Origin: Filimonas sp.
GTDB lineage: Bacteria > Bacteroidota > Bacteroidia > Chitinophagales > Chitinophagaceae
Direction: 5' to 3'
Assembly: GCA_017306865.1 (NCBI GenBank)
Contig: JAFKHH010000016.1
Coordinates: 310,001 to 374,000, forward strand
DNA: 64,000 nt
Below are positions 61,068 through 63,564 of the stretch, piece by piece (position 1 is the stretch's first letter; every line of letters starts with the position of its first letter). A program made the position numbers and the translations under genes. The notes below the pieces were generated by a model. The model saw only the letters and a program-made list of their open reading frames with translations. It searched no databases and was not told where the DNA came from.

Positions 61068-61242
61068 TTCCTATTCCATCCGCTAAAGCGGACGTCAATA
61101 AAAGGCTACCGAATAGAAAGAAAAATTCTTGAGCATTAATATTGAATTCTCCATTTGACATTCCTATATACAAATGCTTTAGCTTTAAAAGTTACTACGA
61201 TTGGCAGCAATATCACATCACACATCTAGCATCGTACATTTT

Positions 61243-61473
61243 CTACGGCACCGGGTCATAACCACTTCCCCCGCCGGGATGACATTTTGAAATTCGTTTT
61301 GCCGCTAATACTGTTCCTTTCAGCACTCCGTGTTTTTTCAGTGCTTCTACTGCATATTGCGAACAGGTAGGTGTGAACCTGCATTTAGGCCCGAGTGCAG
61401 GAGATATTACGTACTGGTAAAATTTTATCAGCAGTATAAACGGATAGGCTAATATTTTAAGCAGCGGCTTCAT
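61243..61473 (-). CDS. yidD: Membrane protein insertion efficiency factor
   Basis: The 76-residue YidD protein has the N-terminal hydrophobic helix ([25 protein letters not shown]), then the conserved core [23 protein letters not shown] and the C-terminal [16 protein letters not shown] with its three cysteines. It assists YidC-dependent insertion of membrane proteins. Its start overlaps the end of rnpA by 17 bases, which fits the standard rpmH-rnpA-yidD order. The following yidC is not in the window. Confidence 0.95.
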
Positions 61474-61864
61474 CTAACTCTTTTATAATCCGTTGAATAA
61501 TGCCCGGCATTTTTTTATTCAGTACCTCCAGTGTGGGTAGTACTTTATCTATATATAAAAAGAAAATGATCAATTGCTTTTTCTCTTTCTCCAAGTAAGC
61601 ATGCAAAGGATGTTTGTTTACCCGGTATGCCTCTCGCAGCAATCGTTTTATCCGGTTACGATGTACAGCTCTTTTAAAGTTACGCTTACTTGCGCTCACC
61701 CCTGCTTTTATAAGCGTTGCGTCTACATTTTCTCCTGGCGTATAAATCACTTTTACAGGAAATGCCAGGAAGGATTTTCCTTTACTGAAAAGTGTATCGA
61801 TCTGATTTCTGCTTTTCAGTTTCTCCTGTTTATTATATGTGTTTTTAGCTGCGATGGATGAAAT
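61457..61864 (-). CDS. rnpA: Ribonuclease P protein component, with non-standard start codon
   Basis: This is the protein subunit of RNase P, which matures tRNA 5' ends. The RNR signature is [24 protein letters not shown]. The first standard start in frame is GTG at 61750, but it would delete the conserved N-terminus. Codons 61751-61849 continue in frame with [13 protein letters not shown], then [18 protein letters not shown], the normal RnpA opening. The frame is open up to a stop at 61868-61870 and contains no ATG, GTG or TTG before 61750. ATT at 61862-61864, ATC at 61853-61855 or CTG at 61817-61819 could serve. I list the ATT; the true start is uncertain. Confidence 0.85.
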
Positions 61865-61878
61865 AGTTTAGATATTAA

Positions 61879-61906
61879 TAAAAAAGCCCCATCGCAAAGA
61901 TGAGGC
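61879..61906 (-). terminator. Terminator between rpmH and rnpA
   Basis: GCCTCATC/GATGGGGC (61899-61906 with 61886-61893, one G-T pair) with a five-base loop is followed on the minus strand by seven T. It would end or reduce transcription from rpmH into rnpA. Confidence 0.75.
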
Positions 61907-61937
61907 CTTATATTGTTTACCGATAAAGATTCCGGTA

Positions 61938-62093
61938 TTATTTCAATTTTCTTTCGTCAGAAACAGTCAGTTTCTTACGACCTTTCTTGCGACGGCTAGC
62001 CAATACTTTGCGGCCGTTAGCTGTTTCCATACGTTTGCGGAAACCGTGTACCGTCTTACGACGACGTCTGTGTGGTTGAAATGTACGTTTCAT
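61938..62093 (-). CDS. rpmH: 50S ribosomal protein L34
   Basis: The 51-residue highly basic ribosomal protein runs from the ATG at 62093 to the TAA at 61938. It opens with the invariant [18 protein letters not shown] and continues with [22 protein letters not shown], with a short acidic-basic tail that is a few residues longer than E. coli L34 (46). It is too short to appear among longer reading frames but is certain by sequence. It heads the rpmH-rnpA-yidD cluster and has a strong promoter upstream. Confidence 0.97.
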
Positions 62094-62176
62094 AAAAATG
62101 TTTTTAAACTAACCCAAAAATGATATTTCAACAAACAGGTAACAGTCACCATCACTGGCACCCGGTGAAAGGACGG

Positions 62177-62207
62177 CAAAGGTAGTAAAAATATGGTTGC
62201 TGCAAAA
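62177..62207 (-). promoter_or_regulatory. Promoter of rpmH
   Basis: On the minus strand TTTTG (62203-62207), an 18-base spacer and TACCTTTG (62177-62184) fit the Bacteroidetes -33/-7 consensus fully. The leader would be about 78 bases. Confidence 0.7.
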
Positions 62208-62226
62208 CAATATTGGCCTTAATTTT

Positions 62227-62256
62227 AAAAAATTGAGGGGGTAAGAATACCCCCTC
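62227..62256 (-). terminator. Terminator of the 62314 operon
   Basis: The 9-bp stem GAGGGGGTA/TACCCCCTC with loop AGAA (62235-62256) is followed on the minus strand by AATTTTTT. It ends the DUF4270 / outer-membrane operon. Confidence 0.85.
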
Positions 62257-62313
62257 GTTCCCTTATTAATCTATAATTGGGCATTACTACCCAACAAGTT
62301 GAAAGCCAAAGGC

Positions 62314-63564
62314 TTAATCATATTTTTTAACCTTGGTGAACCAGAAATCCCTGTAACTAAGCATTACACCGACTTGTACATAGTTCTGCTGCAAAAGGTT
62401 TTTTTGTGTCGTTCCAAACTGTCCAACTTCCAGGTTAAACTGGTAAGACAGGGCAGATCTCCTGGAGTTAAGGCCAAGACCAACTGTAGCCCCGTACGTC
62501 TTCAGTTGCGTGTTATACATCTGCAGGTAAGAACCTCCATAAAAGCCACCGGCCTGTACATAATATTTTTCAAACTTCAGGCCCTGGTAATACAGCTTTT
62601 TAGAATATTCAACTCCGGCAGAGATACGATTGCTGTTTACTAACTGATAGGTCAATCCTTTATATCCTATATCAGTCCATTGCTGTTGCGTAAAATCTGT
62701 GGCGAAAGTCCACTTATCGTTGTATGTAGCGGAAATGCCGCCTGTGTACATTATCGGCAATGTAAAATAGCCTGTCTTATATTTTTCATCACTTACAATC
62801 GTCTGCGAACCATCCGTTACTGTTAACGAATAATCTGCATTCATTGTTGTCTTGTTAGAAAAAGTTGCACCGGCAGATACTGACCATTTTTTAGAAATAC
62901 GTGTATTGTATAGCGCACCAAACTTGTAATACATTTTACTTAGGTAAATATCGCGCTGTGTTGTAATCGCCGATCCTATTACGTTATCTGTTGGCAGGTT
63001 TTCTGTCTGTGACAGGGAACCGGAAAGAAATGCGCTTTCAACACCTACTGAGAAATTTTTAAACGGTGTGAATGCATTGGCAAGATAAAATTTGTGTACC
63101 CCACCAGTTCCTGTATAGTATCCGTTTATACTTGCATTACTACCTTGTACATCTTTAGGCGCATGAAAAGAATAATTGCTGCTGCTAAATGGTAATATAC
63201 CAAAGCTAATGCCCCACCAGGGCTTTATCTTGATTGCCATAGCCAGTTTTTCTATCTGGAAGTCACTGGAGTTACCAGTACTGCTTATCTGGTCTGAATT
63301 GTAAGTAACACCTTTATACCGCCCTGCCATTTCTACAGCGAAGAAATGATCATCCAACCTGCTGTAAGAGGCAGGGTTTGCATGATACATTGCTTTACCT
63401 GAAAACAAACTTACACCGGAGTTGCCCATACCATAGGACCTGTCGAAATAACTGTTTTCAATATCACCTATGCCAATAATAGAATAGGCAGAGGTGTTAT
63501 TTTGAGACCAGGCAGGAACTTTAGAAAATAACGCAATGATTAATATGGTCGTGATTTTTCTCAT
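62314..63564 (-). CDS. Outer-membrane beta-barrel protein, FadL/PorV-like
   Basis: The 416-residue protein has a signal peptide (MRKITTILIIALFSKVPAWSQ). A long beta barrel follows. Its start (SAYSIIGIGDIENSYFDRSYGMGNSGVSLFSGKAMYHANPASYSRL) resembles the N-terminal hatch of FadL/PorV-type outer-membrane proteins with the NPA motif. It ends with YVQVGVMLSYRDFWFTKVKKYD. It begins 6 bases after the DUF4270 gene stops, so the two form an operon. I recall the pairing as common in Bacteroidetes. A role in outer-membrane transport or export is inferred only from fold. Confidence 0.82.
   Translation of the reverse strand: MRKITTILIIALFSKVPAWSQNNTSAYSIIGIGDIENSYFDRSYGMGNSGVSLFSGKAMYHANPASYSRLDDHFFAVEMAGRYKGVTYNSDQISSTGNSSDFQIEKLAMAIKIKPWWGISFGILPFSSSNYSFHAPKDVQGSNASINGYYTGTGGVHKFYLANAFTPFKNFSVGVESAFLSGSLSQTENLPTDNVIGSAITTQRDIYLSKMYYKFGALYNTRISKKWSVSAGATFSNKTTMNADYSLTVTDGSQTIVSDEKYKTGYFTLPIMYTGGISATYNDKWTFATDFTQQQWTDIGYKGLTYQLVNSNRISAGVEYSKKLYYQGLKFEKYYVQAGGFYGGSYLQMYNTQLKTYGATVGLGLNSRRSALSYQFNLEVGQFGTTQKNLLQQNYVQVGVMLSYRDFWFTKVKKYD

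Follow-up and report, generated by a model that had tools for sequence, protein, structure and literature searches.

The window analysed here is a stretch of 64,000 nucleotides from Filimonas sp., and the features that concern us lie on its minus strand (Table 1). The frame between rpmH and yidD is an rnpA gene. Read from stop to stop it matches the Pfam family Ribonuclease_P (PF00825) with 63.6 bits against a gathering cut-off of 22.3, and in an alignment with relatives it has the hallmarks of the RnpA family, the RNRIKR core and an N-terminal LK..LF..G segment. Its 3' end overlaps yidD by 17 nt (61457-61473). Elsewhere on the same strand, at 62235-62256, there is a strong terminator-like hairpin, GAGGGGGTA-TTCT-TACCCCCTC followed by a T tract, 3' of the 416-residue open reading frame that precedes rpmH. 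An Rfam search of 61200-62400 returned one sub-threshold lncRNA match, which we read as chance, and a scan of the locus with a sigma-70 promoter model did no better than on shuffled sequences.

Table 1. Genes and elements of the rpmH-rnpA-yidD locus, in positions of the window
Feature	Position	Strand	Evidence or remark
rnpA (RNase P protein component), proposed coding sequence, 132 residues, ATC to stop	61457..61855	-	PF00825 E 2.1e-17; start by alignment with relatives
ATC, proposed rnpA start, 12 codons 5' of the anchor leucine, commonest start site in relatives	61853..61855	-	
ATT, alternative near-cognate rnpA start, three codons 5' of the ATC	61862..61864	-	
TAA, in frame, upstream bound of the rnpA frame	61868..61870	-	
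GTG, first canonical codon of the rnpA frame, 35 residues past the ATC	61748..61750	-	
Intrinsic-terminator-like hairpin and T tract, between rpmH and rnpA	61873..61909	-	
rpmH (ribosomal protein L34), ATG start	61938..62093	-	PF00468 E 3.2e-21; stop 82 nt 5' of the proposed rnpA start
yidD, ATG start within the rnpA 3' end	61243..61473	-	PF01809 E 1.3e-30

What the rnpA gene lacks is a canonical start codon. There is no ATG, GTG or TTG in the frame from the TAA at 61870-61868 to the GTG at 61750-61748. The codons 5' of that GTG are open and encode an N-terminus of the RnpA type; they number 39 (61867-61751), one more than the 38 counted in the first-pass annotation, which had otherwise been right that this N-terminus has no ATG, GTG or TTG, as the frame and the profile match both bear out. 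The near-cognate codons up to the conserved [RK]LK motif are ATT 61864-61862, ATC 61855-61853 and CTG 61819-61817, the last of which is the motif's own leucine. Counted back from this leucine, the anchor of our alignments, the ATC stands at -12 and the ATT at -15.

One objection is that translation begins at the GTG at 61750, and in other genomes at codons likewise inside the gene, to give a shortened RnpA. That GTG is after all the first canonical codon in frame, and some relatives have an internal ATG only 15-18 residues in. We nevertheless hold this to be very improbable. Starting at the GTG would lose the part that lines up with roughly residues 4-31 of B. subtilis RnpA (31 was counted by eye), a stretch that is conserved as protein. 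The N-terminal segment aligns to residues 4 onward of the solved RnpA chains 4jg4 and 1a6f, and the profile match begins at position 4-8 in 9 of 11 solved chains and at 49 in the other 2. With its N-terminus the window protein scores 47.6 bits against TIGR00188, without it 35.8, and the curated cut-off is 38.35. In the 43 frames of our survey with comparable starts, the first canonical codon past the anchor is scattered from 15 to 105 residues in, with no shared place.

The survey covered 289 rnpA loci of Bacteroidota, and the profile picked out the rnpA frame in all 289. Merging 20 loci with identical frames left 269 distinct stop-to-stop frames, which were aligned on the anchor. Most relatives start rnpA 10-12 codons 5' of the [RK]LK leucine. 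An ATG, GTG or TTG lies within -24 to -7 in 215 of the 269 frames; a further 44 lack any canonical codon at -7 or upstream of it, and the remaining 10 have theirs only beyond -24. The canonical labels may hide further starts at ATT, ATC or ATA (together ATH), since the labelling prefers any ATG in -24 to -7. In L013 a TTG stands two codons 5' of an ATT that L022 and L024 also have.

We believe the frames without a nearby canonical codon make the case for a non-standard start. Once L318, one of the 44 and the bearer of a GTG at -6, is left out, there are 53 of them, and 41 have ATT, ATC or ATA at -12 to -10. Permuting codons within rows 5000 times gave a mean of 16.2 (sd 3.1) and a maximum of 28. 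At -9 to -4 ATH is absent in all 53. Taking -15 to -10 as the range for start candidates gives 43 ATH frames (ATA 20, ATC 12, ATT 11, with L215, whose ATA has an ATC before it, placed under ATC). Of these, 39 lack any canonical codon at -7 or further upstream; in the other four (L075, L174, L219 and L266) such a codon lies far upstream, which leaves room for a longer protein in these frames. L277 additionally carries a TTG at -6. Among the 53 frames, ten offer no canonical codon nearby and no ATH at -15 to -10 either (L106, L135, L280, L284, L258, L265, L283, L029, L298 and L306); at the aligned start site, -12, L106 has ACG and L135 has CTG.

Within the window this alignment makes the ATC at 61855-61853, not the ATT, the likeliest start of rnpA. 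The ATT at 61864-61862 is near-cognate and in frame as well, and 12 of 51 frames have ATH at -15; even so, a start at the ATT, or the use of both codons, seems unlikely to us. The ATC sits at -12. ATH occupies this position in 19 of the 53 frames, and ATG is found there more often than at any other position in the canonical frames (53 of 202). The GCA that follows the ATC parallels the GCT that follows the ATG of L006.

The missing canonical start is real and is shared with other genomes. The first-pass annotation had proposed comparing start codons in related Chitinophagaceae. In the family sample of 113 distinct frames from 59 genera there are 63 ATG, 23 TTG, 4 GTG and 23 ATH starts, a share of ATH that is not an unbiased estimate because sampling was partly by similarity to the window protein, best matches first. 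Eleven of the 59 genera have ATH, 8 of them throughout and 3 mixed, and in one mixed genus (g23) it occurs only via a frame with a far-upstream canonical codon. Filimonas zeae rnpA has ATC. The other families of the order have ATH in 4 of 47 frames, with no start found in 7; outside the order, the rest of the class has 0 of 20, and outside the class the rest of the phylum has 0 of 23, with no start found in 2. A FastTree gene tree of 222 short proteins, 42 of them ATH, built after omitting rows that scored weakly against the profile and four more besides, needs 16 changes between ATH and canonical starts. One short protein resolves poorly, so we claim several origins rather than 16: judging by this tree, several lineages of the order seem to have gained or retained the ATH class. 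It is important to realize that a weak AUH start is not a requirement of this operon, since rnpA has an ATG, TTG or GTG start in the majority of relatives that share the operon.

The same recurrence speaks to whether an ATG is simply hidden by a sequencing or assembly error, or whether the gene is decaying. In favour of an error, the genus of the window is represented by one genome. However, the trait is found in those 11 genera and partly in one-contig genomes (for example G136, G251, G352, G398 and G128), so it is very improbable that an ATG has been lost from view through an error. The rnpA frame is also intact and present as a single copy in the source genome, and we give error and decay together almost no weight.

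Chitinophaga is where the pattern is most complete. All 18 Chitinophaga-type frames lack a canonical start; 10 come from Chitinophaga records (C. alhagiae, chungangae, filiformis, niastensis, ginsengisegetis, rupis, dinghuensis, silvisoli and two further species) and 8 from genus g7, which on sequence grounds we take to be Chitinophaga. At the aligned site 17 have ATA and 1 has ATT. Across the 18 frames pN/pS is 1.32 in the three codons before the ATA, 0.36 in the ten codons after it, 0.15 in the next 25 and 0.57 in codons 27-90. The synonymous sites themselves are unusually conserved in the first codons, where pS is 0.22-0.30 vs 0.67 further on. This is probably the result of a hairpin embedded in these codons, described below, and it complicates pN/pS there.

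The neighbouring genes and infC served as controls. Where rpmH was found (206 of 269 loci) it has an ATG start in all 206, directly before the motif in 190 and after a short extension in 16. For yidD, found in 141 loci, a canonical codon precedes the motif in all 137 whose upstream stop could be seen; in the other 4 no such stop was visible. The textbook AUU gene is infC, which in E. coli starts with AUU. Among our genomes 38 had a match to infC, and the 30 loci read (L137-L166) all have a canonical codon before the motif: ATG in 24, including the source genome, and TTG alone in 6. The AUH gene here is thus rnpA and not infC, and AUU-based autoregulation by IF3 seems absent in these relatives. 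The first-pass annotation had suggested a non-standard start as in infC that allows autoregulation. The non-standard start itself is well supported, the trait recurring at the aligned site in other genomes, and the likeness to infC is right as to the class of codon, but infC of the same genome starts with ATG. The autoregulation is unsupported: RnpA is not IF3, and we found no feedback element for rnpA in the window.

How a ribosome would find such a start is the next question. Between -20 and -5 an SD-like tetramer (GGAG, GAGG or AGGA) occurs at 0 of the 43 ATH starts, and the same scan finds it at 7 of 149 ATG starts and 2 of 66 GTG/TTG starts. This is as expected, because Bacteroidota mRNAs lack SD sequences, according to passages of PMC6847099. 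An A at -3, a favourable feature in this phylum, is seen at 27% of ATH starts and 36% of ATG starts, so it is not enriched at the former. Another way into the frame would be for ribosomes to shift into it from rpmH or after starting at an out-of-frame AUG. An out-of-frame ATG does occur between -60 and the anchor at 14 of the 43 ATH loci, but such a frame is open to the anchor at only 6 of 43, in differing places, and the one in the window (ATG 61892-61890) reaches a stop after five codons, which leaves frameshifting with hardly any credibility in our opinion. We also considered a variant initiator tRNA. The initiator anticodon-arm pattern is found in 11 places in the source genome, and ARAGORN calls a tRNA at only one, with anticodon CAT; we rejected the variant on this single CAT tRNA, a weak negative, as initiators whose arms differ from the pattern would escape it. 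The sequence GGGATCATAACCC occurs six times in the source genome with no ARAGORN tRNA (L320, L321, L323, L324, L325 and L327) and may mark a repeated element.

We turn to initiation by the ordinary initiator tRNA. In the in vitro work on IF3 described in parts of PMC10158994, Watson-Crick pairs are needed at the first two bases of the codon, and mismatches at the third are disfavoured but not always abolished. These rules fit the pattern of A and U kept at bases 1 and 2 with a variable base 3, and they also fit the weakness of such starts. In the S. aureus reporters, passages of PMC13009471 give AUA and AUU starts about 10% of the yield of AUG in poor medium, and up to 30% for ccpN in rich medium. 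From the discrimination at base 3 and these reporter yields we infer low synthesis of RnpA. L34 is required in ribosomal amounts, and RnpA far less. Low RnpA synthesis is sensible because the same operon must supply L34 in bulk.

The other half of the argument concerns terminators. The first-pass annotation had a terminator separating rnpA from rpmH, and it holds up: a stem at 61909-61883 is followed by TTTATTAATA, and the 76-nt stretch around this hairpin and its T tract has a folding z of -4.7, with 0 of 200 shuffles as stable. We counted as terminator-like any hairpin of -12 kcal/mol or better with a T tract. Where the gap between rpmH and rnpA is at least 45 nt, 113 of 137 loci have such an element between the genes, as the window does (shuffles, 10 each: mean 2.2, maximum 5). 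Where the gap is below 45 nt, 29 of 58 loci have the element inside rnpA, in its first 135 nt, compared with a mean of 3.0 and a maximum of 6 in 20 synonymous-codon shuffles. An embedded element is also present in 10 of the 137 wide-spaced loci (shuffles: mean 3.0, maximum 7), and in 25 of the 58 close-spaced loci no element appears even when the threshold is relaxed to -6. Examples of an embedded terminator-like hairpin, in the first ~110 nt of rnpA, are found in L015, L079 and L204 as well as in L257, L266, L269, L273, L277, L291 and L292.

The 29 embedded elements comprise 13 in Chitinophaga-type frames, 5 more with the same hairpin and 11 with different sequences (L028, L257/L261, L266/L278, L269/L271, L273, L277, L291 and L292). 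In an alignment of the Chitinophaga-type hairpin 97.1% of cells are paired, with no two-sided change in 16 sequences, which is hardly different from column shuffles. We consider the hairpin supported on other grounds, the synonymous shuffles and the unrelated hairpins at a similar place elsewhere. The embedded form is not specific to ATH starts, since the ATG-start loci L027, L204, L257 and L261 have one too.

Putting the two halves together, we think it likely that a weak AUH start, probably the AUC at 61855-61853, and the terminator keep RnpA scarce relative to L34. The ordinary initiator tRNA would read this AUC with a third-base mismatch and so initiate infrequently, and the terminator after rpmH would cut transcripts short of rnpA; with the weak start this would leave RnpA scarce and L34 in bulk from the same operon. 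Initiation at the AUC, its low yield and selection for that yield are all things we infer, and low expression is the best-supported purpose of the weak start and a plausible one. The distance from the ATH start to the rpmH stop is 7-37 nt at 21 loci and 73-116 nt at 20, the window among the latter; rpmH was not found at 2 of the 43 ATH loci. In close-spaced operons it is plausible that ribosomes leaving rpmH re-initiate on rnpA. A more elaborate scheme can be imagined for Chitinophaga and its relatives, in which AUH starts without SD are routine on rnpA, are reached by re-initiation after rpmH when the genes are close-spaced, and are followed by first codons that double as an intrinsic terminator firing under sparse translation, which would couple the weakness of the start to transcription as an attenuator, possibly with RNase P itself as the sensor. 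We regard this scheme as doubtful.

If a weak AUH start on rnpA is true, Bacteroidota ribosomes would accept AUH in natural mRNAs, in a housekeeping gene and without an SD, across all Chitinophaga frames surveyed and in other genera. Gene finders that accept no start other than ATG, GTG and TTG would presumably overlook rnpA here or call it too short. The relatives would also offer a natural series at one site (ATG, TTG, GTG, ATT, ATC and ATA) for asking how an operon sets the strength of a start. To our knowledge, few bacterial genes have been described with AUU or AUA starts. We found no report of a non-AUG rnpA start in titles and abstracts of mainly open-access literature.

In the E. coli rpmH-rnpA operon terminators limit rnpA. 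The window is alike in having a terminator between the bulk synthesis of L34 and rnpA. The window terminator is intergenic, unlike that of E. coli, and the embedded version is found in the window's relatives. Genes with AUU or AUA starts include infC, cvfC1 and ccpN of S. aureus in passages of PMC13009471, whose reference list adds E. coli pcnB; rnpA does not occur in the main text of that paper. S. aureus infC, cvfC1 and ccpN and E. coli pcnB are, as far as these passages go, like the window rnpA in having an AUH start, a product that is to stay scarce and an expected limit on yield. The three S. aureus sites are described there with predicted extended SD motifs, whereas none of the 43 Bacteroidota rnpA ATH starts has an SD-like tetramer. 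In S. aureus and E. coli infC is AUH-started, but in the rnpA relatives here it is canonical, and the infC type of autoregulation, in which IF3 proofreads the start codon of its own gene, does not apply as the product here is RnpA. The overlap of rnpA and rpmH in Thermus, as passages of PMC9841429 describe it, is likewise a case in which rnpA is linked to rpmH through an uncommon way of starting translation. There both genes start with AUG and rpmH is nested in rnpA, whereas in the window rpmH ends 82 nt upstream and the frames are not nested.
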